DNA from: SAR202 cluster bacterium
GTDB lineage: Bacteria > Chloroflexota > Dehalococcoidia > Lucifugimonadales > UBA6952
Reading direction: 5' to 3'
NCBI GenBank assembly: GCA_009392515.1
Contig: VFGE01000016.1
Span: forward strand, 1-36,065
DNA length: 36,065 nt
Positions 6,345 to 26,250 of this stretch are shown here, piece by piece (position 1 is the stretch's first letter; each line of letters starts with the position of its first letter). The notes under the pieces were generated by a model. It had not been told where the DNA came from. It made no database searches and saw only the letters and a list, made by a program, of their open reading frames with translations. The position numbers were made by a program, and so were the translations under genes.

Positions 6345-7727
6345 ATGGATAAATTTTTAGATAATATGACATCTTATGCACAAGATTTAAAATTTGAAGA
6401 TATTCCACAAGATGTTGTGGAACGTGCTAAACACTTTATCTTAGATGCTGTAGGTTGTGCTTTAGGAGCAAGTAAAAGCCCTCCGGCTATTATTGCCCAA
6501 GCATCAGCAAAAGAAATTTCTTCATCTACTCCTTCAAAGGTATTAGGATCTGCTGAACCGACTTCTCCAGACCTTGCAGCTTTTGTAAATGGAGCAATGA
6601 TAAGGTATCTTGATTACAATGATACCTACACAGGATATACCACCTGTCACCCAAGTGATATGGTAGGACCTGCACTTGCTGCAGCAAGTGCAAAACCTGA
6701 TGGTAACGGAAAAGATGTTATTTTAGGTACAGTATTAGGTTATGAAATATTGTGTGGTCTTACCGACACGCCTATTTTTGAAGGATCTACTGGATTTCGC
6801 CATTGGGATCAATCTGCTCTTGGACTAGTAGCAGCCTCCGTTTTATCTGCAAAAATTTTAGGTTTAGATAAAGAACAAATGGATCACGCTGTTAGTTTGG
6901 CTGTTTCTTCTCACCTTTCTATAGGTCAAATACGAACAGGGCAAATTTCTCATTGGAAAGGATGTGCAGTAGGAAATGCTTCAAGAAATGGCGTTTTTTG
7001 CTCTATGCTTGCTGCAAAAGGTATGACCGGACCAAATTTTGTTTTTGAAGGTGAAGGCGGATATTTCAATGCTATTGGTAATAAAGTTGAATTACCACCA
7101 TTTGGCAATAAAGGTGGAGAATTTAAAATTATGAGAGCTAGAGTAAAACCTTTCCCTTCGGGATACTTTTCTCAAAGTGCGATTGAAGCAGTTCTAGAAT
7201 TACGAAATAACATAAAAAACGTAGATGAAATTAAATCAATTTTACTAGAAACCTTTCCTTCGGGAAAATCTGCGATGGGTGGCGATATATCTCGATGGAA
7301 ACCTGAAACTCGAGAAAGTGCAGATCATAGTCTACCTTTTGTTATGGCAGTTGCATTGATGGATGGAAACTTAGAAATCCGCCATTATGATGAAGAATAT
7401 TACAAAAAAGACAACGTCAGAGAATTAATGAGTAAAATACAAGTTGAGGTTGGCGAAGAGTCGTCGAAAGCTTGGCCTGATGTGCCATTAAATGTTTTAA
7501 CTATAGAAACAAATTCTGGAGAGAAGTTTTCTACCAAAGTTGCATTTCATTTAGGCCATTATGAAAGATTAATGACTAATGAGCAATTAGAAAATAAATT
7601 CCGCCCGATGGCTTTACAATACGGAGACCTCTCTGAAGATCAATTAAACGAACTATTATCAAAACTTTGGAACCTAGAATCTGTAAATAATATAGATGAA
7701 GTTATAGAACTAACTGCAAGAAAATAG
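6345..7727 (+). CDS. MmgE/PrpD family protein (PrpD-like)
   Basis: This is a 460-residue member of the MmgE/PrpD fold family, which includes 2-methylcitrate dehydratase, cis-aconitate decarboxylase and iminodisuccinate epimerase. Start ATG 6345 has a strong CGGAGG site. Residues 87-95 (RYLDYNDTY), HPSD at 102-105, FRHWDQSALG, the HWKGCAVGNASRNG segment and ESADHSLPFVMAVAL are the substrate-pocket landmarks. DYNDT...HPSD resembles true PrpD more than the second copy does. However, no other methylcitrate-cycle gene (prpB, prpC) is nearby, so 2-methylcitrate dehydration should not be assumed. It could share the rib transcript, being 29 bases after ribH, but has no evident functional link to it. 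Confidence 0.88.
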   Translation: MDKFLDNMTSYAQDLKFEDIPQDVVERAKHFILDAVGCALGASKSPPAIIAQASAKEISSSTPSKVLGSAEPTSPDLAAFVNGAMIRYLDYNDTYTGYTTCHPSDMVGPALAAASAKPDGNGKDVILGTVLGYEILCGLTDTPIFEGSTGFRHWDQSALGLVAASVLSAKILGLDKEQMDHAVSLAVSSHLSIGQIRTGQISHWKGCAVGNASRNGVFCSMLAAKGMTGPNFVFEGEGGYFNAIGNKVELPPFGNKGGEFKIMRARVKPFPSGYFSQSAIEAVLELRNNIKNVDEIKSILLETFPSGKSAMGGDISRWKPETRESADHSLPFVMAVALMDGNLEIRHYDEEYYKKDNVRELMSKIQVEVGEESSKAWPDVPLNVLTIETNSGEKFSTKVAFHLGHYERLMTNEQLENKFRPMALQYGDLSEDQLNELLSKLWNLESVNNIDEVIELTARK

Positions 7728-8115: not shown

Positions 8116-9498
8116 TTATGGTCGTAATAGATCTCTTAAATCCCTAACATTACCTAAAGATTCTAAATTCCATATAGTATCAATCAATTGATCAGTTTTA
8201 TCTTTTCCAATTACCATCTCTAAAAGTGGTCGTTCCTTAATTTCCACTTCCTCTGTGCTTAATGGATCTTCCATAGCACCTTTTACTACTACAACATGAT
8301 TTCGATATTTTTCACCATTAGTGTGATTAAATTCTACAACCCCTTGACGTGGACTTTCTGGAGTAATGAGACTAGGATCAGTTTCAACTTGAATTTTGTT
8401 CATAATCTGTACGACATCATCATTTGACATACGATCAAAATCGTGACCTGCTTCAAAAGATAAACCTCTATCTAATAAACTTACTGCTAATAAATAACGC
8501 AGGTTTATATCGGGCATAGTTTGGGCATCACTTGTTAAGCGGCTATCACCATGTGCTAAATATACTGTCATATTATTTAAATCAGAAGGATTAACTTCAT
8601 GATCTCTTACAATATTAAGTAATGCATCTACAGGTGCTTGAATAGGCGACCCCACACAATATTTCTTTATGTTTGTATCCATTATTTCATAATGAGAACC
8701 CAACCCCTTAATTAACTCTGATCGGAAATGTTCTGAAGCAAAACAATCAAAAAAGTTATTTTGACCTTCTATCACATCCCAAACACCAGTAAATCCAGCT
8801 TCTACCATAGTAGCAGCAGTCGCACCACTTCTGCAGGGCATTCCTGCAAAATCAAAAGCTTTTTCAATATGTTCTAGATCTAATTGCCATGCTGTAATAC
8901 CAGATGCTTGCTGTGTAGTATAAGAAAGTAAATATCTAACCTTTTTTTCATCTAATTCAATGTGAGTTCCAGCAGCTGCTGCTGCTCCAAATACACCACC
9001 AATAGCATGACTACTAAATCCTCTTCCATGCATTCTTTGGAATGTACCTCCTCCAAAAGCTCTCATAAATCTTGCACACATGTCATATCCCAAAGCAATC
9101 GAATTCAAAAAGGTTTTTCCATCAGTTTGGTTTTTTTCCCCCATAGCAAGAGCAGGAGGTATAATTGTACATCCTGGATGAGTTCCTGACGCAGCATGAG
9201 AATCATCTGTTTCATCTGAATGTGCTAACATTCCATTGGCCAATGATGCTGTTACAGCATTTGTCAAAAAGTTAGTGCCTATGATTTGGGATTGATCTGA
9301 ACTACCCTGCAGTTTGGCATACTTAATAGCAAATTCCCCAGGTGGTAAAGTCGTTCCAGAAACCATCGCAGCTAACGTATCTAGAATATGATGTTTCGTT
9401 TTTAAAGCAACATTATCAGGTAAATCTGCCTTTTGAGCATCAATAAAATAATCTGCTAATTGTTTAATAATCGTATTATCTGTTTCAGACGAGCTCAT
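8116..9498 (-). CDS. MmgE/PrpD family protein (second, divergent copy)
   Basis: This is a second 460-residue MmgE/PrpD-fold protein, clearly different in sequence from the one at 6345-7727. Residues 93-109 read HSDETDDSHAASGTHPG, the H-x-DxDD...HPG pattern seen in the cis-aconitate decarboxylase/iminodisuccinate epimerase-like branch. Later landmarks are FKSHAIGG-like GRGFSSHAIGG, KKYCVGSPIQAPVDALL, and DINLRYLLAVSLLDRG. The start ATG has GGAGG six bases upstream. It is the last gene of a minus-strand run, 54 bases after dapA, so it could be transcribed with the dap genes. Substrate cannot be read from sequence; a lyase or epimerase acting on a small di- or tricarboxylate is likely from the family. 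Confidence 0.88.
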   Translation of the reverse strand: MSSSETDNTIIKQLADYFIDAQKADLPDNVALKTKHHILDTLAAMVSGTTLPPGEFAIKYAKLQGSSDQSQIIGTNFLTNAVTASLANGMLAHSDETDDSHAASGTHPGCTIIPPALAMGEKNQTDGKTFLNSIALGYDMCARFMRAFGGGTFQRMHGRGFSSHAIGGVFGAAAAAGTHIELDEKKVRYLLSYTTQQASGITAWQLDLEHIEKAFDFAGMPCRSGATAATMVEAGFTGVWDVIEGQNNFFDCFASEHFRSELIKGLGSHYEIMDTNIKKYCVGSPIQAPVDALLNIVRDHEVNPSDLNNMTVYLAHGDSRLTSDAQTMPDINLRYLLAVSLLDRGLSFEAGHDFDRMSNDDVVQIMNKIQVETDPSLITPESPRQGVVEFNHTNGEKYRNHVVVVKGAMEDPLSTEEVEIKERPLLEMVIGKDKTDQLIDTIWNLESLGNVRDLRDLLRP

Positions 9499-9552: not shown

Positions 9553-10443
9553 TTAAACTGGTAAGTCTATTTCATATTGAGATAATAAATTTTCCAGAAA
9601 AGCTTTTGTGGTTTCATCTACTTCATCCAATGGTAAACGAGTATGTCCAGCAGGAAAACCTACAGAATTTACACAATATTTCACTGGAATAGGATTAGCT
9701 ACAGTAAACAATCCTTTTGATATGGGTAGCAGCTTACGATGTAGTGATGCTGCACCGCTTATACTGCCATCTAGTAACATTTGTATCATAGATTTTATTT
9801 GCAAACCTACTAAATGACTAGCAACACTTATAATTCCATATCCTCCTAAACACATAATGGAAAAAGTATCAGAATCATTCCCGCTCCAAACTTTAAAGTC
9901 TTCATTAGTGCCATCAATAATATAAGATATTTGATCAAAATCAGAACTTGCTTCTTTTATACCTACAATATTTGGAATTTGACTCAATCGAATCGTGGTC
10001 TCGGCATTTAAGTTAGTGATAGTACGACTAGGAACATTATATAAAATACATGGTAAATCAGTACTTTCAGCTATTGATCTAAAATGTTGATATAAACCTT
10101 CTTGAGTTGGTTTGTTATAATATGGAACAACTAGTAATAATGCATCAGCGCCAGCCTTTTTTGCTTCAGCACTCAACTCAATACTTTCTTTAGTACTATA
10201 ATTCCCGGTTCCAGCAATAACACTTTTACTATCTCCTAGTTCTTCTTTTATTTCAGAAAATAGTTTCATTTTTTCGATTGTAGATAGGGTAGGTGATTCT
10301 CCTGTGGTGCCAGATACTACTAATCCATCGCTACCTGATTCAACTAGAGCAGTTGCTAAACGTCTAGCATTTTTGTAATCAACTGAATCGTCAGAATCAA
10401 AAGGTGTTACCATAGCTGTAAACAAACGCCCCAAAGCAACCAT
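9553..10443 (-). CDS. dapA: 4-hydroxy-tetrahydrodipicolinate synthase
   Basis: DapA condenses pyruvate with aspartate semialdehyde, the first committed step of lysine and diaminopimelate synthesis. The 296-residue length is normal. The Schiff-base Lys163 is in GIKEASSD, Tyr135 in LYNVPSR (with Arg140), and the GTTGES loop is at 45-50, so the catalytic set is complete. AGGAG lies eight bases before the ATG. It follows asd by 53 bases on the minus strand, in the order rpsO-pnp-dapB-asd-dapA, which supports true DapA function for this copy. The DapA-like domain of the 16395-18527 fusion is a distant relative without the GTTGE loop. Confidence 0.96.
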   Translation of the reverse strand: MVALGRLFTAMVTPFDSDDSVDYKNARRLATALVESGSDGLVVSGTTGESPTLSTIEKMKLFSEIKEELGDSKSVIAGTGNYSTKESIELSAEAKKAGADALLLVVPYYNKPTQEGLYQHFRSIAESTDLPCILYNVPSRTITNLNAETTIRLSQIPNIVGIKEASSDFDQISYIIDGTNEDFKVWSGNDSDTFSIMCLGGYGIISVASHLVGLQIKSMIQMLLDGSISGAASLHRKLLPISKGLFTVANPIPVKYCVNSVGFPAGHTRLPLDEVDETTKAFLENLLSQYEIDLPV

Positions 10444-16394: not shown

Positions 16395-18527
16395 ATGGCA
16401 AACTATTCAAAAAATGAAGCTCAAGAATGGGCATGGGAAAATTTAAAAGGTCAATGGACTACCCTTGTTACACCATTTGATTCCAACAATAAAATTGATG
16501 AAATTGGTTTAAGAAAAAATATTAAATACACCCAAAGCCTAGGAACTAAAGGTGCAGGTTGTACTTGGGGTATGGGTGAATTTTGGAGTCTTAGCCAAAA
16601 TGAAAGAAAAACAGTAATGGATATTACTGCCGATGAAGGTAGATCTAACTGGCTAATTGGTTCTCATATAAGCCATACATCAATGGTAGATATGCTAGAT
16701 TTAGCAGATCACGCTCAATCCACCGGGTTTGATTTACTCATTGTGGCAGCACCATATATGGTTGCACGCACAGAAGAACAGGTAATTGAATGGGTAAGTA
16801 CATTAGCCTCTCATACAAATCTTGCAATAATGTTTTATAATTCACCCCAATTTAATATAGTAATGAGCCCTCAGGGCCTTAATAAATTATGCCAAATACC
16901 TAATGTTGTAGGAGTAAAAGAAGCAAGTTTTAGTCAACAAACATCTATAGAAACACACTTATTAGTAGGAAAAAAAGCAATAATAAGTACCCCAGATGAA
17001 TGGATTTATAGAAAAGCAGAATCATTAGGATTTAAACAACAAGTTATGTTTGCAAACACATCAGACTGGAGATTTGATACACCAAATAACAACAATTATG
17101 TAAAGTTTATTGATAAAGCCTCAGAAGGCAATATCGACTGGAACTTCTATGACAAAAACATTAAAGCAATCAAAGATGTCTCAGATAAATGGTGGGGATA
17201 CACTGTGAAAAAATTTGGGGGCGCTTTACCATTAACCTTAGTTAAATACTGGGGAGAATTAATGGGTATGGCTAGCGGTGGTGTTCGCCAGCCTTTTTCA
17301 GAATTAACCGAAAGTGAAAAAGAACAAATTAAATCTGATATCAGCTCAGTAATTTCTTTGAATAATATCCCTAATAAAACTCAAAATAATTTAGCTGGAG
17401 AACTAAGTTCAAACGTCTATACTACAGATTTAATTGCTAAAAATGGTAATGGCCACAAAAATGGTAATGGCCACAAAAATGGTCTTGGTTCATTTTCTGA
17501 TGCTAGGCCTACAGGATTTGACTCAGGTATGATGCTAATGGTAAGTGTTCAAGACGTTAAAGAAGCTCTTGAAGCCGAAAAAGGTGGAGCTGATGTTGTA
17601 GATGTGAAAAATTTACAAGAAGCAATGGTGGGATCTGGGCATCCCCTTATTGTAAAAGAAGTAAGAGAAATTATACCCGAAGAAAAACATGTAAGTGTTA
17701 CTTTAGGAGTAGTACCTAATCAACCCGGTACAGTTGCTATGGCAACTCATGCTGCTGCCTCTTTAAAGGCTACATCGGTTAAAGTAGGATTTATCAAAGC
17801 TGATTACGAAACTGCACTCGATGTTTTAAAAGAAGCAAAAAAAGCTCTGGAAGGTACTGAGACTAAATTAATTGGATCTTTATTTGCTGATAATGTTCTT
17901 TATGAAGAGGGGTTAGATCCTGAATGTATGGTTACTCTTGCCAAAGAAAGTGGTTGCGATGGATGGCTTATAGATACTCTTACCAAAGATGGAAGAAATT
18001 TATTTGACTTTATACCTGAAGCAAAACTTAGAGAAATGGTTTTTGAAAGTAAAAAACTTGGACTCAGTACAGCTTTATCTGGGCATCTCAAATTAACAGA
18101 TCTTGATGAACTAGCTAGAATAAATCCTGATATTGTTGGTGTAAGAGGAGCTGTCTGTTCTACCGGCGACAGAGATAGAGCTGTTGCTTGGGAAGCAGTA
18201 GCAAAATTTAAATCAGAATTAGATAAGAGGAAAAGTGGTGAAATAGAAGTACATGATAAGCCAAGTACTAATTCCGAAGAATGGAATATCATTGACGGAA
18301 GAGGTAAAACTTGTGCAGGTGTATTAGCTGCTTTAACAAATCAAATAAATGAAAATCCATATTCATATGTTGAAGCCATTTTAGCTGATGCTCTAAATAT
18401 CTATGATGTAATTGTCTGGGCTGAAGAAGGAAATCATGAAGTAATAACTAAAAGAACTGATGCTGATGGTTCTGTCCGTGTTCTTTTTAAGCCTAATGCA
18501 ATGCGTTTAAAAGAATCATCAAAATAA
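16395..18527 (+). CDS. Triple fusion: DapA-like aldolase, MfnB-type furan phosphate synthase, TusA-like domain
   Basis: This is a 710-residue protein of three recognisable parts. Residues 1-320 form a DapA/NAL-family class I aldolase barrel with Schiff-base Lys175 (GVKEAS) and Tyr148 (FYNSP). The GTTGE loop is replaced by CTWGMGEFW, so its substrate differs from DapA. Residues 349-365 are an Asn-Gly-His-Lys repeat linker. Residues 378-612 match MfnB (DUF556), the enzyme that builds (5-formylfuran-3-yl)methyl phosphate from two glyceraldehyde 3-phosphates: DVKN (Lys405), VKVGF (Lys463), DTLTKDG (Asp527, Lys531), LFDF and GVRGAVCSTGDR are all present. Residues 630-700 resemble TusA: DGRGKTCAGVLAAL with Cys640 at the persulfide position, Ala replacing the usual Pro. 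AGGAG lies six bases before the ATG. The hydrolase-like gene follows after 22 bases. The substrate, pathway and role of the fusion are unknown. Confidence 0.85.
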   Translation: MANYSKNEAQEWAWENLKGQWTTLVTPFDSNNKIDEIGLRKNIKYTQSLGTKGAGCTWGMGEFWSLSQNERKTVMDITADEGRSNWLIGSHISHTSMVDMLDLADHAQSTGFDLLIVAAPYMVARTEEQVIEWVSTLASHTNLAIMFYNSPQFNIVMSPQGLNKLCQIPNVVGVKEASFSQQTSIETHLLVGKKAIISTPDEWIYRKAESLGFKQQVMFANTSDWRFDTPNNNNYVKFIDKASEGNIDWNFYDKNIKAIKDVSDKWWGYTVKKFGGALPLTLVKYWGELMGMASGGVRQPFSELTESEKEQIKSDISSVISLNNIPNKTQNNLAGELSSNVYTTDLIAKNGNGHKNGNGHKNGLGSFSDARPTGFDSGMMLMVSVQDVKEALEAEKGGADVVDVKNLQEAMVGSGHPLIVKEVREIIPEEKHVSVTLGVVPNQPGTVAMATHAAASLKATSVKVGFIKADYETALDVLKEAKKALEGTETKLIGSLFADNVLYEEGLDPECMVTLAKESGCDGWLIDTLTKDGRNLFDFIPEAKLREMVFESKKLGLSTALSGHLKLTDLDELARINPDIVGVRGAVCSTGDRDRAVAWEAVAKFKSELDKRKSGEIEVHDKPSTNSEEWNIIDGRGKTCAGVLAALTNQINENPYSYVEAILADALNIYDVIVWAEEGNHEVITKRTDADGSVRVLFKPNAMRLKESSK
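17441..17483 (+). repeat. Tandem 18-base repeat encoding an Asn-Gly-His-Lys linker
   Basis: Two perfect copies of AAATGGTAATGGCCACAA (17441-17458 and 17459-17476) plus a partial third (17477-17483) lie inside the fusion gene. They encode a flexible, histidine-containing linker between the aldolase and MfnB domains. Copy number could vary by slippage without shifting the frame. Confidence 0.9.
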
Positions 18528-18549: not shown

Positions 18550-19350
18550 ATGGCCGATTTATCTAATATTTCTATTTTAGATCATGAAGAAATAAGCGAT
18601 TTTATTTTTATAAATCGTGATAATTGGAATTCACCTCAAGAATCATCTGAAGATCATTTGATCGAAATAGATAACGATGCTTCAATAAATGCGCGGTTTT
18701 ATTTTAAAAACCCTGATTCGACAAATATTTTGCTGTTTCATGCTAATGCTGAATCACCAATAGATTATGATGGCTTAAAACAAGATTTCTTCAGCATTAA
18801 TGTAAATCTTTTTGTAGCAAGTTATCGCGGATACGGTAATGGAATAGGTACTCCAACAATAATTAATTCTTTACATGATTCTGAAAATATCTTTGATTAT
18901 TTTAAGAAAGTATTATCTGATAAAAATGCAAACGGCCCGATAATTATTATGGGAAAAGCTATTGGATCTTTATCTGCTTTATATATTGCATCTCATCACA
19001 ATGAAGAAATATCAGGGATTATTACTGAAAGTTCATTTTCAGGCCCAAAGTACTGTGCTGAAATATCTGGTGTAGAATTAACACAAGACCAGCAAAATGA
19101 ATTAGAAAATTTTTCCCACGAATTATGCAATTCTATAACTAGTCCGGCTCTTTTAATTCATGGGGAAGCTGATTTTATGATACCAATCACAGAAGCACAA
19201 ATTCTTTTTGATCTTCTAGGTAGTAAGGCTAAAGATATAATAACCATACCAGAAGCTGATCATGGCAACTTAGTAATACTTGGTGAAGAATATTATTGGT
19301 GGGCAATTGAAGAATTCATTTATACCCACTGTAACATAAGCCCGTATTAA
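18550..19350 (+). CDS. Alpha/beta-hydrolase-fold protein lacking the nucleophilic serine
   Basis: This 266-residue protein has the fold signature of the Bem46/ABHD13-like (COG1073) hydrolases: LLFHANAE near residue 61, YRGYGNGIGTPT at 92-103, an acid-bearing loop HGEADFMIP (Asp208) and ADHGN (His238). The nucleophile elbow reads GKAIG (135-139), so the expected serine is alanine (codon GCT at 18958-18960 region). Asp and His of the triad remain. It may therefore be a non-hydrolytic binding protein, or use another residue. It begins 22 bases after the triple-fusion gene on the same strand, suggesting a shared role. Its TAA overlaps the stop of norD on the other strand. Confidence 0.82.
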   Translation: MADLSNISILDHEEISDFIFINRDNWNSPQESSEDHLIEIDNDASINARFYFKNPDSTNILLFHANAESPIDYDGLKQDFFSINVNLFVASYRGYGNGIGTPTIINSLHDSENIFDYFKKVLSDKNANGPIIIMGKAIGSLSALYIASHHNEEISGIITESSFSGPKYCAEISGVELTQDQQNELENFSHELCNSITSPALLIHGEADFMIPITEAQILFDLLGSKAKDIITIPEADHGNLVILGEEYYWWAIEEFIYTHCNISPY

Positions 19351-22300
19351 AAAGTTAATTTCCTGTAAAGGGTAGGTAGCCTTGTTGGTAGGGAAGAAAT
19401 ATCATCTAATATCTCGTATCCCATATCTTGGCACATAGTTTTTAAATAATCATGTCCTGATTTATCAACAGTAAGACAAAAAGGTGTAATTCCTTTATGT
19501 CTTGCCTCTATCAATGCCATCCTCGTGTCATGAACTGCATATTCTTTTTCCACACCTTCTCGACTATATCCTCTATCTTGAGGTCTTCCATCACTTATCA
19601 AAAATAGTACTTTGGTTCTTGAATCTTGTTTTGCTAGTTTTGAAACAGCATGCCTAATAGCTGGTCCCATTCTTGTAGCATGTAACGGAGAAACTTTATC
19701 AATACGACGCTTAATACGTTCATTAAATTGTTCTTCTAGGTCTTTAATTACATAGTATTCAACATTTTCTCGACCATATCCAGAAAATCCATAAATACCA
19801 TACCTATCTCCAATTGTTTCCAAAGCATTAATAAGTAAAACTATACTTTCTTTTTCTAAATCAATTATTCGCTTGTAGCTACGTTTATTTTCAGCGCCTC
19901 GACGAGCTCTAAGCCAAACCATATATTCAACAGGATCATCTGGTGCATCCCAATCATCTGGATTTTTTCGTGATTCATCTATTGCTTCAGCTGTTGAGGC
20001 ACTCATATCTAAAAGAAAAGCAACTGAAACATCTCGCTCTATTTTATTTCGTCTCCAATGTACTTTATCAGAAGGAGATTCTCCTGCCCATTTATCTATA
20101 ATTGATTCGATAACTGCATCTAAATCAAAATCATCTCCATCTGGTAAATGTTTAATTTTCCGATAAACTTCTGGCATAAGCATTTCGAATTGTCGTTTTA
20201 TTTGATTCATTAGTTGGCGATAATCACTAACGGTTTGTTGATAAAATTCCGTGTCTCCTTCCGTCATAGGTTTTTCTTTCACTAGACACCATCTCGGTCT
20301 GTAATCAACAGCTCGAAAATCCCATTCATCATAAACGTATGATTTTTCTTCTTGGACTGTTAAGGATTCTCCCTCGTCATCTTGGTGAGGAATCGGAGCA
20401 TATCCCTCTTTTTGCTGATCATTTTGAGGAGCTTGTGATTCTTTCATCAAATTCTGTATAAAGTTTGAAAGCTCTTCATCAAATTGCCCAGATTCTGCAT
20501 CAAGTTCCAATTCTGCGCTATCAGCAAGCATCTGTTGAAGCATTTCTTCAGTAATTTCAATCCCTTCTCCCATCGAAGATTGACTATCAGTTTGATTGAG
20601 TTTCATCTTTTCTAACAATTGGCTCAATTCAGGTTTGAAATCACCACGAAAATCAACTTGAGGAGGTGATTCATAGTCCTGAGACTCCCCTAAATCACCA
20701 AAATCAGGAGAAGAATTAGCAGTCATCTGCTGCAATAAATTTTCCATCTCTTCATTTGACATTTCTTCTTCAATTTCTGTATCAATTTCAGACCAATCTT
20801 CTTCAGGTAATTCTGTATTTGGAAAGTCTGCAATTAAATCATATATCCTTAAAGTTGCTTCTGCAGAATCTTCAACAGTTGTATCTTCTGTAAGAACTTT
20901 ATTAAAAATTTGTAATAATAACTTAGCCTCTTCAATATATGCCGTTGGGCAAGGCAATCCTTGAAATTGTTGTAGACTAAACCTCACAAGAAATTCAACC
21001 ATGGCTTCTTGCAATGGCATTTCTTCAATATCAGGTCTGTCTTCCATAGAATCTTGTTGAACTCTCTTGTACAAACCAGCCAAACCAGGATATTTATTCC
21101 TGATTACATAATCTAGCCGCCCATCTTCGACAACAGTAAATAAATCTAATGCTAATTTCCTATTAGGGAAAAGGTTAAAATATCTCCCCATATCAGTTAC
21201 GTGAGATTTTTCCACATTTGGGGCAGATGTTTCTTGGCTCTCATCAACCAAATCGATTTCTACATGGCTTTTATGTTGTTCAATTGCTTCGGTTTCTCTT
21301 TGCAACCGACTATCAATAAAATTTGAGGATTCTTGCTCAAAATCAAACTCAAAACTTCCAAATTCAATTCGAGCTACTTGATGAGTTGAAATAACTTTAA
21401 ATAACCCAAAATTAAGATCCTTATTATCATAATAGTCTGAAATGTGAGGCAAATAAACGACATTTCCTTCAGTTGTTGCGTAATTTGCAGATACCCAACC
21501 TATATTCTTGGCTACCAACTCGGCACTATTCCCTATTTCTATATCTGCACCAGCAAGAGCTCTGCAATAAATCCTTAGTACTCCTTGGACTTTTTCAAGT
21601 TCAACTGATGACGATAAATCATCAATTACTCTTTCAGAAGTTGTTGATTCAATTTTGAAAAAAGCCAATCCGCCTTCAACATTATTATTTAGTAACTCAA
21701 TACCTCGATTGAACCAGACTTCAATTTGGTTAATGGTAATCTGGTTTACTAATTGAGGAGCGTTTTGTAGGAAAGCAAAAACAGCTTCGCTCGATATTGG
21801 AAGTAGTTGTTCAGCTAAATCTAAAAATTTACTTTGATAATTTTCATCTAATCCAGATAAAGATTTTGAGGTTTCGTTAAGAAATAATGAAAGGTTTGGT
21901 AAATTATTTTTAGCAATACTTGCCGATAAATTAATAAACCTTCCTCGTTGTGATTGTTCAAAACTTTGTATAAATCTTGGAGCATATTCAAAACAACTTT
22001 TAACTTCTCTCCAATTATTTTCAGCAACTGAAGATACCATTTTTATAAAATCACTTCTATTTGAATCTATTGAAGGCAATACATCTTTACTTAATATCAA
22101 ACATTCAGTGGCTACATCAATTGATTTTCTGGAAATTAATTCTACGAAATCTCCAAATTCTCGCAATTCTGTATCAGTTAAATCTTCTAGTATTGAACCT
22201 GAACTCTCAAAAAACTTAGATGCTAAAGCACTAGATTTCCAAGTGCCTTTGTATAATCGACTTCCTAACTCTGCCCAGTCTGACATTTTTTTCGCATTAA

Positions 22301-22634
22301 GATTTTGTAATCTAGGTCCTGTACTCGATTTAAAAAATGATACAGCCAAACCAGGTGATTGATCACATAAATTTAAACCACATTGACCCCAATGAAGTAA
22401 ATCAGCACCCGAAACAAATTTTGAAACATCTGAGCTTGATTTATAGTACTCTGCAGCAGCTTCCCATGATCTAACAGTTTTCTGGGCAATTTGGACTCCC
22501 TGTCGAGCCCAACTACTAAAATATGGCTCTTCAATTATAGAAAGTATGTTATTTACAGCGGTTTTGAATTCGTCTAATACTGAAGAAGGAAATTTGGATA
22601 ACTCTAATTCAATATCTTTTATTTCTTCTTTCAT
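19347..22634 (-). CDS. norD: NorD/CbbO-like VWA protein with long N-terminal repeat region
   Basis: This is a 1095-residue protein whose C-terminal third is a NorD/CbbO-type von Willebrand A domain. The metal-ion-dependent adhesion site is complete: Asp876-x-Ser878-x-Ser880, Thr987 and Asp1015 (SDGRPQD), followed by the NorD-typical DTRMALIEARHKGITPF and the LP-x-LYRKLT end. The middle (residues 380-560) has the NorD-like ISTHQVARIEFGSFEF and FTVVEDGRLDYVIR segments, then an acidic linker (about 605-765). Residues 40-340 consist of about eight degenerate 36-42-residue helical repeats. With its AAA+ partner NorQ (23219-24112), such proteins insert metal into or remodel a client enzyme such as NO reductase or Rubisco. 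No such client is in the window. AGGA is six bases before the ATG, overlapping the end of the NUDIX gene. Confidence 0.88.
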   Translation of the reverse strand: MKEEIKDIELELSKFPSSVLDEFKTAVNNILSIIEEPYFSSWARQGVQIAQKTVRSWEAAAEYYKSSSDVSKFVSGADLLHWGQCGLNLCDQSPGLAVSFFKSSTGPRLQNLNAKKMSDWAELGSRLYKGTWKSSALASKFFESSGSILEDLTDTELREFGDFVELISRKSIDVATECLILSKDVLPSIDSNRSDFIKMVSSVAENNWREVKSCFEYAPRFIQSFEQSQRGRFINLSASIAKNNLPNLSLFLNETSKSLSGLDENYQSKFLDLAEQLLPISSEAVFAFLQNAPQLVNQITINQIEVWFNRGIELLNNNVEGGLAFFKIESTTSERVIDDLSSSVELEKVQGVLRIYCRALAGADIEIGNSAELVAKNIGWVSANYATTEGNVVYLPHISDYYDNKDLNFGLFKVISTHQVARIEFGSFEFDFEQESSNFIDSRLQRETEAIEQHKSHVEIDLVDESQETSAPNVEKSHVTDMGRYFNLFPNRKLALDLFTVVEDGRLDYVIRNKYPGLAGLYKRVQQDSMEDRPDIEEMPLQEAMVEFLVRFSLQQFQGLPCPTAYIEEAKLLLQIFNKVLTEDTTVEDSAEATLRIYDLIADFPNTELPEEDWSEIDTEIEEEMSNEEMENLLQQMTANSSPDFGDLGESQDYESPPQVDFRGDFKPELSQLLEKMKLNQTDSQSSMGEGIEITEEMLQQMLADSAELELDAESGQFDEELSNFIQNLMKESQAPQNDQQKEGYAPIPHQDDEGESLTVQEEKSYVYDEWDFRAVDYRPRWCLVKEKPMTEGDTEFYQQTVSDYRQLMNQIKRQFEMLMPEVYRKIKHLPDGDDFDLDAVIESIIDKWAGESPSDKVHWRRNKIERDVSVAFLLDMSASTAEAIDESRKNPDDWDAPDDPVEYMVWLRARRGAENKRSYKRIIDLEKESIVLLINALETIGDRYGIYGFSGYGRENVEYYVIKDLEEQFNERIKRRIDKVSPLHATRMGPAIRHAVSKLAKQDSRTKVLFLISDGRPQDRGYSREGVEKEYAVHDTRMALIEARHKGITPFCLTVDKSGHDYLKTMCQDMGYEILDDISSLPTRLPTLYRKLTF

Positions 22635-22635
22635 T

Positions 22636-23208
22636 TTATATCCTTTTGGTCCAGCCAGATTTCATGATAATATCCAAGAATTGTTTAAGCATTCTTGCAG
22701 TTGCACCCCATATTATGTGGTCATTAAAGAAATAAACCCTAGACTGAAATTCCTCTTCTTTGTCTTCATAATTATCAGGATTTAAAAGTAGTTTTATTGG
22801 CACTTCTAGGACTTCAGCAACCTCTTCAGTACTAGGACTGAATTCATATGGATAAGGAATAGTCCCTACAAATGGATGGATTCGAAATCCGGCCCGAGTT
22901 CTAGTTTCACTTAGGTCTCCTATTAGTGTTATATCTTCGATATTGATTCCCATCTCTTCAAACACTTCTCTTTTCGCTGTATCTGTTAGATGATTATCTT
23001 CTGGATCCTGTGCACCACCTGGGAAACATATATCACCTTTATTAAACTCTACAAGTTCTGTACGTTTGTTAAACAATATGCAGTAATCGCCATCTTTAGG
23101 ATAAAGTAATAAACACACTGCTGAATTCCACAAAGTTTCATCTGACAATATTTCAGGATCAGAAGAACTTAATATTGTACTTAATTCTACTAAATCTGGA
23201 TTCAACAA
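22636..23208 (-). CDS. NUDIX hydrolase, CoA-pyrophosphatase type
   Basis: This 190-residue NUDIX protein is of the type that hydrolyses CoA or its derivatives to 4'-phosphopantetheine and 3',5'-ADP. The NUDIX box starts at residue 63 (PGGAQDPED) and ends with KREVFEEMGI at 79-88, with the spaced acidic insertion typical of the CoA group. KRTELVEFNKGDICFPGG precedes it, in place of the usual VRxHxGxxxFPGG. The start is TTG 23208, five bases after AGGGGGT, which overlaps the norQ stop. It is one base from norD. Its place between norQ and norD, with coaE upstream, is notable. Substrate is inferred from subfamily and context only. Confidence 0.82.
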   Translation of the reverse strand: MLNPDLVELSTILSSSDPEILSDETLWNSAVCLLLYPKDGDYCILFNKRTELVEFNKGDICFPGGAQDPEDNHLTDTAKREVFEEMGINIEDITLIGDLSETRTRAGFRIHPFVGTIPYPYEFSPSTEEVAEVLEVPIKLLLNPDNYEDKEEEFQSRVYFFNDHIIWGATARMLKQFLDIIMKSGWTKRI

Positions 23209-23218
23209 GTTTTACCCC

Positions 23219-24112
23219 CTATTCAAAAATAGACATTATTACTTCAGTAATACTTTTCTGCACTTCTTGATCATCAGTAACGCCCCATACTACAGCTGAT
23301 TGGCATGCTCGTCGCGGTGGTATTCCATGTTTAATTAGTTTTCCAGCATAGATTAGTAATCTCGTGCTTGCTCCCTCTTGCAAACCGTGATCTTTTAAGT
23401 TTCGTACTTTTTCTCCTAGTCTAGCTAAAGACTCGGCCATTGCACTATCTACACCACTTTCATGAGCTATAACTTTTGATTCAGAATCTTGATCAGGGTA
23501 ATCAAATTCAAGAGCAACGAATCTTTGCCTAGTACTATGTTTTAGGTCCTTTAATGCACTTTGGTATCCAGGATTATAAGACATACATAATAAAAATCCA
23601 TCGTCTGCTTGAACGACTTGTCCTCGCTTTTCAATTGGTAATAATCTTCTATGATCAGTTAGTGGATGGATTAAAACAGTTGTATCTTTTCTTGCCTCTA
23701 CAACTTCATCCAAATAACATATTGCCCCTGCCCGAACTGCTCGCGTCAAAGGACCGTCAATCCATTTTGTTTCTTCTCCTTCAAGAAGGTATCGACCAAC
23801 CAGATCACTTGCAGTTAAGTCTTCGTGGCAAGCTATTGTAATTAAAGGTAATCCAGAACCCGTATCATCATTTGTTTTTGTTGTTTTAATTTTAGTTACA
23901 GGTCTACCCAAGCGCCATGCCATATGTTCAACAAATCGTGTTTTCCCACAACCAGTAGGACCTTTAAGAAGAACTGGTATTCTTTGTTTGTATGCCGCCT
24001 CAAACATTTCGACTTCATCAGTTACGGGAACATAAAATGGTTCTTCTTCAACAGTATATTCTTCTATCATAAATTCCTGAGCTAAATTGCGATTACTTTT
24101 CTTTTGAGTCAC
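23219..24112 (-). CDS. norQ: CbbQ/NirQ/NorQ-type AAA+ ATPase
   Basis: This is a MoxR-class AAA+ ATPase of the CbbQ/NirQ/NorQ group. I place the start at GTG 24112, which overlaps the coaE stop (GTGA) and has GGAGGG four bases upstream, giving 297 residues. An ATG at 24142 would overlap coaE by 34 bases. Walker A GPTGCGKT is at 51-58, [16 protein letters not shown] near 95-110, and Walker [12 protein letters not shown] around 131-141, all typical of this group. It acts with a VWA partner of NorD/CbbO type, found two genes downstream at 19347-22634. The client protein is not evident. Confidence 0.92.
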
Positions 24113-24714
24113 GTTACCCTCCCGTTTACTCTTGAATGCCATAAAGTTTTGACTTTTTCGTGAAGTTGTTCAATTGTTCCATCATTATCAATTACAACAT
24201 CTGCATGTTTTTCACGTTCATCGTTAGACATTTGTGATTGTATTCTCTTAATGATTTCTTCACGAGTAAAATTATTCCTTAATTGTACTCTTTCTATCAC
24301 AACTTCTTGATTTGCTTTAGCCAGCCATATTTCATCAGTCAAATCTTGCCAATTTGCTTCAATCAATATAGCAGCTTCCAATATAACTACATTAACTCCT
24401 TGATCAGAGAAATTTTTAATTTTTTCCTTAACTAAATCATGTATTATTGGGTGCATAAGTTTGTTAAGTTTATCCATTTCATTAGGATCGCTGAATACTA
24501 TTGATCCTAATTTTTTCCGATCAATCTGTTTGTCAGGTCCCACAATATCTTGACCAAAAACTGAAATTACTTTTCGCCAACCTTCAGAATCAGGAGTGTA
24601 TGCTTCGTGACCAACCTTATCTGCATCTATTACATCAACACCTAAAGATTTAAGTATCTCTGACACAGAACTTTTTCCAGACCCTATTCCGCCGATTAAA
24701 CCGATTACAAACAT
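24109..24714 (-). CDS. coaE: Dephospho-CoA kinase
   Basis: CoaE phosphorylates dephospho-CoA in the last step of coenzyme A synthesis. The 201-residue protein has the P-loop GGIGSGKSS at residues 8-16, the [10 protein letters not shown] substrate segment, [10 protein letters not shown], and [19 protein letters not shown] near the lid, all typical. GAGG precedes the ATG at seven bases. It is the first gene of a minus-strand unit with norQ, the NUDIX gene and norD, overlapping norQ by four bases. A well-formed promoter is visible at 24741-24770. Confidence 0.96.
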
Positions 24715-24882: not shown

Positions 24883-26250
24883 ATGGTGAATGAATTACAA
24901 AAAATACCTAGTGTAGACGCTGTACTAAGAGACCCTTTAGTAGAAGAGCTCTGTAACATCTTTTCTCGCTCATATGTCACTAACACAATTCGTACTGTTT
25001 TAACAAATTTTAGAACAAATATGAAAAATGGTACTAAAGCTCCTGATATATCTGAAATAATTTCAGATATACAAATTTACATTGGAAATAAGTTAAATAC
25101 TTTTCCCAAAACCATAATCAACGGAACAGGAATAATTTTACATACAAATTTTGGACGAGCGTTATTAAGTAAGGAGTCAACTGAGGTAATAAAAGATATA
25201 GCTATTAACTATAGTAATCTAGAATTCGATCTTGTTTCTGGAGAAAGATTTTCACGACATAAACATGTTGAACATTTAATAAATTATCTAACAAACTCAG
25301 AAGCTTCAAATGTAGTGAATAATAATGCTGCAGCATTAATACTTACACTCACTAGTATTTGTGAAAATAAAGAAGTAATTATTTCTAAAGGTGAACAAGT
25401 AGAAATAGGTGGAGGATTTAGAATTCCAGATATTGTAAATCAAAGTAGAGTCCATATAACTGAAGTTGGAACAACAAACAGGACGTACTTATCAGACTAT
25501 GAAAATGCTATCAACAAAAATACTGCAGCAATACTAAAAGTTCATCCAAGTAACTTCAAAACGATAGGTTTTACGAAAAGCCCCGATTTAGATGAATTAG
25601 TAGTGTTAGCAAATAAATACAATATCAAGTTAATTAATGATTTAGGTTCAGGATGCCTAATTAATACTGAAAATTATGGAATTGAACACGAACCAACCGT
25701 ACAAGAAAGCGTTTTATCAGGATGCCATATAACTTTATTTTCAGGAGATAAATTAGTAGGAGGTCCTCAATCAGGCATCATAATTGGGGAAAAAGAATTA
25801 ATTAATAAGACAATTAGACATCCACTTGCAAGAAGTTTCAGATTAGATAAATTCAATTTGGCAGGTTTACATCGTACACTTGAACATTATGTCAGAGGGG
25901 AAGTCGATAGAAAAATTCCAGTATGGCAAATGATAAAAATGAACAAAAAAGCAATATTAACAAAAGCTGAAAAATTACAAAAGCTAATCAAGTACAAAAC
26001 AACGATTGAAAAAAGTGTATCGCAAATTGGCGGTGGTAGCTTACCTGGGCAAGAATTAGAAACTTTTGTAATAGGAATTGATGAAAAGCATATGCCTTTA
26101 GGTCAAGAAAATTTTAGGAAAATATTAAGAGAAAGTACCCCTTCCATTATCGGCAGAAGCGAAAATTCGAAATTATTATTTGACCTAAGGACAATACATT
26201 CAAATCAAATCAAAACTTTAGCAAGTATAATTAACAATATTAATACATAA
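24883..26250 (+). CDS. selA: L-seryl-tRNA(Sec) selenium transferase
   Basis: SelA converts seryl-tRNA(Sec) to selenocysteinyl-tRNA(Sec) using selenophosphate and PLP. The 455 residues include the N-terminal IPSVDAVLRDP, INGTGIILHTNFGRALLS near 79-96, EVGTTNRT, the IND-LGSG region and the PLP-binding Lys290 in LFSGDKLVGGPQSG. Length and motifs are normal. The genes usually next to it (selB, selC tRNA, selD) are not in the window. No in-frame TGA selenoprotein candidate was seen here. It stands alone, divergent from coaE and convergent with the esterase, with a 45-base gap. Confidence 0.94.
   Translation: MVNELQKIPSVDAVLRDPLVEELCNIFSRSYVTNTIRTVLTNFRTNMKNGTKAPDISEIISDIQIYIGNKLNTFPKTIINGTGIILHTNFGRALLSKESTEVIKDIAINYSNLEFDLVSGERFSRHKHVEHLINYLTNSEASNVVNNNAAALILTLTSICENKEVIISKGEQVEIGGGFRIPDIVNQSRVHITEVGTTNRTYLSDYENAINKNTAAILKVHPSNFKTIGFTKSPDLDELVVLANKYNIKLINDLGSGCLINTENYGIEHEPTVQESVLSGCHITLFSGDKLVGGPQSGIIIGEKELINKTIRHPLARSFRLDKFNLAGLHRTLEHYVRGEVDRKIPVWQMIKMNKKAILTKAEKLQKLIKYKTTIEKSVSQIGGGSLPGQELETFVIGIDEKHMPLGQENFRKILRESTPSIIGRSENSKLLFDLRTIHSNQIKTLASIINNINT

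Follow-up and report, generated by a model that had tools for sequence, protein, structure and literature searches.

A three-domain fusion gene in a SAR202 genome

The window analyzed here, the whole stretch of 36,065 nucleotides, comes from a 1.55 Mb genome of the SAR202 group of Dehalococcoidia and has a near-identical public contig (JAKUQA010000016.1). On its forward strand, an open reading frame at positions 16395-18527 (stop codon included) begins with ATG and is open throughout, encoding a single 710-aa protein and confirming a preliminary description that had placed a three-domain fusion on one frame. The N-terminal part is a DapA/DHDPS-family class I aldolase domain (16395-17354, aa 1-320), delimited using PF00701, alignments and AlphaFold2. 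It is followed by an MfnB domain (4-HFC-P synthase, PF04476; 17523-18230, aa 377-612), delimited by Pfam, PDB match, alignment and fold, and by a C-terminal TusA-like domain (18270-18524, aa 626-710). An Asn/Gly-rich linker (NGNGHKNGNGHKNG; 17355-17522, aa 321-376), placed from the sequence and the domain borders, bridges the aldolase and MfnB and is missing wherever the genes are separate. AlphaFold2 models of the protein were confident (pLDDT 86.9 and 91.7, the latter for the aldolase). As the triple fusion recurs in several lineages (G001, with 99% identity, G014, G051, G007 and G044), we ruled out an assembly artefact or a one-off fusion. We use the term module for the aldolase, MfnB and TusA-like parts, whether fused or encoded by separate genes.

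The aldolase domain matches the Pfam DHDPS family at aa 17-317 (102.7 bits, cutoff 22.1), and its predicted structure superimposes on the DapA structure 2yxg with a Z score of 33.7. The Schiff-base Lys175 and the catalytic Tyr148, both singled out in the preliminary description, are present and invariant in an alignment of 30 aldolase sequences. In these features the domain resembles the DHDPS/NAL family, but it misses the TIGR00674 cutoff (80.1 vs 206.15 bits) and differs from DapA in its substrate-binding motifs. The window also contains, next to asd and dapB, a strong DHDPS-family gene with canonical motifs (9553-10443); in alignment with this DapA, the fused aldolase has WGMGEFWSL for GTTGE and YNSPQF for YNVPSR. 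Across module aldolases, W[GN]MGEFWSL stands in place of the pyruvate-binding GTTGE and YN[ST]xQF in place of the Arg motif YNVPSR, and invariant QQ-MFANTSDWRF, WW and KYW motifs are found that the DapA of the window lacks. We therefore ruled out a simple DapA, and, as the motif that binds the pyruvate carboxylate has been lost, pyruvate should not be assumed to be the partner substrate.

The MfnB domain is complete (PF04476 at aa 381-605, 189.3 bits, cutoff 22.4). Its PDB match is MJ1099/MfnB (4rc1, E=2e-42), on which the predicted fold superimposes over 232 residues with a Z score of 36.4 and an rmsd of 1.3 Å. The preliminary description had called the MfnB signature intact, and this held at the level of single residues: D403, K405, K463, D527 and K531 align with D25, K27, K85, D151 and K155 of MJ1099. 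We take the first four of these MJ1099 residues to be part of the catalytic site, following Wang et al. 2015, and K155 is reported to be catalytic in MfnB (PMC11365854). MfnB sequences share 57-73% identity inside the module clade across phyla and ~37% with MJ1099, and the fused domain does not reach the curated MfnB equivalog models NF002573 and NF002575 (193.2 vs 341 and 180.3 vs 304 bits).

When the three segments were searched against Pfam, the expected DHDPS and MfnB assignments were obtained over their cutoffs and the expected TusA assignment was not, as the segment at aa 626-710 taken alone scored 16.9 bits (E=0.0058) against a PF01206 cutoff of 28.6. Homologous tails and ORFs matched PF01206 in 23 of 23 cases at E<=0.1 (best E=3.7e-10), a stand-alone archaeal homolog exceeded the cutoff (32.5 bits), and the best PDB match of the tail profile was the TusA-like protein 1pav (Ta1170/Ta1414). 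The predicted structure has the element order beta-alpha-beta-alpha-beta-beta, and Cys640, the third residue named in the preliminary description, is present and invariant in 23 TusA-like sequences. Fold order and the position of this cysteine are shared with TusA sulfur carriers. The module domain differs from them in that the CPxP sulfur-transfer motif is absent from the alignment of these 23 sequences, where the invariant Cys is followed by A/K-G, in its weak individual scores, and in that no Tus relay gene was seen adjoining it.

Several other genes of the window were recorded. Downstream of the fusion, at 19347-24142 on the minus strand, a 1095-aa VWA-domain protein, a NUDIX protein and a CbbQ/NorQ-type AAA ATPase lie in one run; by sequence, the VWA protein and the ATPase resemble a NorQD/CbbQO-like pair. 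We rejected these NorQ/CbbQ-VWA genes as partners of the module because they are not recurrent around its other copies. Two related MmgE/PrpD-type proteins of 460 aa each are encoded on opposite strands (6345-7727, plus; 8116-9498, minus); they cluster together, and one was confirmed by Pfam. SelA (L-seryl-tRNA selenium transferase) is encoded at 24883-26250 on the plus strand in this small marine genome.

Distribution of the module and its neighborhood

We found the module in 33 of the 59 genomes of the order to which the window belongs. A survey of related genomes for the fusion, as the preliminary description had proposed, showed that it does recur: all three parts are fused in the source genome (G000) and five further genomes, and the neighboring-gene form occurs in ~27 more SAR202 genomes. 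A collection scan also recovered the module in two Planctomycetota, Thermoplasmata and Micrarchaeota, so that the association of the three genes extends to four phyla, bacterial and archaeal. The module is rare in Thermoplasmata, as a survey of the class recovered it in only 3 of 120 genomes. In archaea, MfnB, the TusA-like protein and the DapA-like protein are separate and mostly adjacent genes; most bacteria have an MfnB-TusA fusion beside an aldolase gene, and in the MfnB tree, as in the aldolase tree, the bacterial copies group in a single clade. At nearly all loci read, MfnB occurs together with a TusA-like part that has the invariant Cys. These separate, adjacent and part-fused forms indicate that the three parts are linked independently of their fusion. 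A literature search found no paper that treats MfnB and TusA together and no relevant paper on MfnB in SAR202.

In several lineages the module is physically linked to quinone genes. In G014 the fusion lies within a single-strand run UbiD-UbiA-UbiX-[fusion]-UbiE/MenG (L057). Four Micrarchaeota loci (L052, L053, L055 and L056) have the order MfnB-TusA-DapA-UbiD-UbiA with UbiX nearby, and in another micrarchaeon DapA, UbiD and UbiA are consecutive (L175). Of the 32 SAR202 genomes with both UbiD and the module, 13 have the two within 20 kb of each other. In most SAR202 genomes, including that of the window, the UbiD cluster is not adjacent to the module; in most of them the nearest neighbors of the module are RecG, PheA, DAK and Trk genes. 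The UbiD contig of the source genome (L111) ends inside UbiA; a complete cluster is present in the congener G001 (L112).

Further genes were seen near these clusters. Genes for a TPP protein resembling the beta subunit of sulfopyruvate decarboxylase, for a PHP phosphatase, or for both are confined to several SAR202 module lineages, where they lie near UbiX (L114:4152-5408, L115:1245-2486, L121:5323-5889, L116:14222-14881 and L118:4318-4977); their products could possibly perform additional steps of the pathway to which the module belongs. Directly beside UbiD lies a gene that combines a CinA-like with a cytidylyltransferase-like part (L121:8911-10041 and homologs); it is found in seven fetched UbiD loci, six of them in module genomes and one in G034, which lacks the module, MqnA/D and MenD. 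Beside the Micrarchaeota operon, conserved genes encode a DUF981 membrane protein and a regulator of the HxlR type (L053:4400-5828, L055:1332-2566).

Methanofuran and methylofuran synthesis is known to begin with MfnB, whose catalytic residues are intact here. This speaks for an alternative in which the module supplies C1 transfer with a furan cofactor, methanofuran-like or otherwise, and its location near quinone genes is incidental. Using formylmethanofuran:H4MPT formyltransferase (FTR, PF02741) as the sole methanofuran marker, we found it in 0 of the 59 genomes of the order, and a control search was positive in two methanogens; we therefore rejected a methanofuran system. In its whole domain, fold and five catalytic-site residues the module MfnB is like MJ1099 of methanofuran biosynthesis, but its setting is not: it almost always occurs with TusA-like and DapA-like partners, neither of which methanofuran requires, and the enzyme that would use the cofactor (FTR) is missing from the 59 genomes. 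Given also the shortfall from the equivalog cutoffs and a UbiD/UbiA linkage that is seen in bacteria and archaea alike, we regard a C1 cofactor as a very improbable product. Co-occurrence of the parts and the absence of FTR support the earlier proposal of a furan-forming module outside methanofuran metabolism in which the aldolase and TusA-like parts are functionally linked. The preliminary description had also suggested, as conjecture, that the aldolase might supply or consume the furan aldehyde and that the TusA part might carry sulfur.

Occurrence of the module, MqnA/D and MenD, and the quinone tail enzymes

We compared the occurrence of the module with that of known quinone head-group routes, using MqnA/D (PF02621) and MenD as the only markers. 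Counts in the 59 genomes of the order were 33 for the module, 12 for MqnA/D and six for a MenD over cutoff. MqnA/D is absent from the source genome and from 31 of the 33 module genomes, the two exceptions (G039 and G051) having one PF02621 hit each, and no module genome of the order has a MenD over cutoff. This near mutual exclusivity is significant over all genomes (Fisher P=6e-6) and when each family is represented by a single genome (P=1.6e-4), values that are optimistic because genomes of one order are related. The complex I subunit NuoH is encoded in all 59 genomes, so that all of them should need a quinone. UbiD is present in 32 of the 33 module genomes, the exception being 75% complete; it also goes with MqnA/D genomes, but occurs in 0 of the 6 MenD genomes. 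This distribution is expected if a carboxylated intermediate persists until after prenylation. In the 20 module genomes outside SAR202, which belong to three other phyla, UbiD is present in 20 and MqnA/D and MenD over cutoff in none.

Ten genomes of the order (G004, G008, G019, G022, G025, G034, G046, G053, G055 and G057) have complex I and none of the three heads, and three of them (G004, G034 and G046) have UbiD. Quinone supply in the order is thus not fully explained; these genomes perhaps use a further quinone route or are incomplete assemblies.

The anticorrelation with Mqn and Men could in principle reflect the phylogeny of the order; the module would then make a sulfur-containing metabolite that has nothing to do with quinones. 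The states are indeed shared among related genomes, and the nearest genes in most SAR202 genomes are the RecG, PheA, DAK and Trk genes described above and not quinone genes. However, exclusivity survives reduction to one genome per family, and genomes with the module, with MqnA/D and with MenD are spread across families, MqnA/D and MenD both being found within f13 and again within f29. The same rule holds in the 20 genomes of other phyla, and operons with UbiD and UbiA arose in separate lineages. On this evidence, we consider an unrelated metabolite improbable.

The tail enzymes themselves resemble those of the futalosine pathway in gene content, in the order UbiD-UbiA-UbiX-UbiE, in sequence and in requiring a carboxylated aromatic compound. 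In G001, UbiD passes the menaquinone-decarboxylase model TIGR03701 (622 bits vs 495.9), and the methyltransferase MenG/UbiE passes its demethylmenaquinone/ubiquinone model (237.5 vs 216). Where tested, UbiD of SAR202, Thermoplasmata and Planctomycetota module genomes passed the same NCBIfam decarboxylase cutoff; that of one micrarchaeon fell below it (433.9 vs 495.9). UbiA did not reach the cutoff of the best curated MqnP model (292.7 vs 430) and is, judged by sequence, MqnP-like only. Module and MqnA/D genomes interleave in both the UbiD and the UbiA trees, as though two heads shared a single tail. The difference from the futalosine pathway lies at the head, where a furan-aldehyde module is found and MqnA/D is lacking in 31 of the 33 module genomes of the order and in all 20 outside it.

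A proposed furan-based route to a quinone head group

Gene order, the replacement of known heads and the tail enzymes agree in pointing to a quinone. Our best reading is a third, furan-based and previously undescribed head-group route into a futalosine-type tail, in which the fused protein probably acts as a three-enzyme module that replaces MqnA-D and synthesizes, entirely or for the most part, the carboxylated aromatic precursor of the quinone head group.

In this route, the MfnB domain would condense two glyceraldehyde 3-phosphates to 4-(hydroxymethyl)-2-furancarboxaldehyde phosphate (4-HFC-P), a known reaction of its family (PMC11365854) for which the catalytic residues are kept. While the domain anatomy, its conservation, the linkage to quinone tail genes and the exclusivity with MqnA/D and MenD are observed, we infer all later reactions and which quinone finally results. 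The DapA-like domain may form a carbon-carbon bond between the furan aldehyde and a partner through a Schiff base on Lys175, and Cys640 of the TusA-like domain may deliver sulfur or act as a thiol carrier during ring building or rearrangement. UbiA/MqnP would then prenylate the product, UbiD/MqnL with the UbiX cofactor would decarboxylate it and UbiE/MenG would methylate it. What the module makes could be the naphthoate of the futalosine pathway or else a novel ring that perhaps contains sulfur. A C6 furan phosphate and one C3 unit do not add up to the C11 of 1,4-dihydroxy-6-naphthoate, implying either more steps or a different quinone; TusA, which has no obvious role in menaquinone synthesis, also counts against our best reading.

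In a special case of our best reading, the head group made by the module would belong to a new quinone other than menaquinone, for instance a bicyclic one that contains sulfur or a furan (benzothiophene- or benzofuran-like), with TusA supplying the sulfur. The TusA-like part with its invariant Cys, present with MfnB in nearly all loci read, speaks for this case, as does simple arithmetic: a C6 furan and a C3 unit sum to C9, as many carbons as a benzothiophene or benzofuran carboxylate has. There is also a precedent in caldariellaquinone, a benzothiophene quinone used by Sulfolobales. A 2026 survey, in which many Chloroflexota seemed to lack all known quinone pathways and which suggested undiscovered quinones (PMC13386864), counts in the same direction. 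Against it, the tail enzymes are orthologous to and interleaved with those of MqnA/D genomes, and a UbiD over the menaquinone-specific cutoff favors a similar naphthoate. We therefore consider such a head group rather unlikely.

A bolder formulation is a chorismate-independent third origin of quinones in SAR202, Planctomycetota, Thermoplasmata and Micrarchaeota, in which the DapA-like aldolase and the TusA-like sulfur carrier convert a furan aldehyde derived from two triose phosphates to a new, possibly sulfur-containing aromatic carboxylate that enters the UbiA-UbiD-UbiX-MenG tail. We advance this tentatively, at somewhat less than even chances. The methyl-plastoquinone of Nitrospirota, a recent discovery in other taxa, shows that new respiratory quinones still come to light in bacteria without known pathways (PMC13386864).

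SAR202 bacteria are ubiquitous across the ocean (PMC10444878), and the main text of the SAR202 cultivation paper contains no data on quinone type. The module is a concrete candidate for the synthesis of an electron carrier in many SAR202 and some archaea. If the proposal is correct, a third head-group route would be added to Men and Mqn, MfnB-family proteins would gain a role outside C1 metabolism, and predictions of 'no quinone' made from genomes would need revision.
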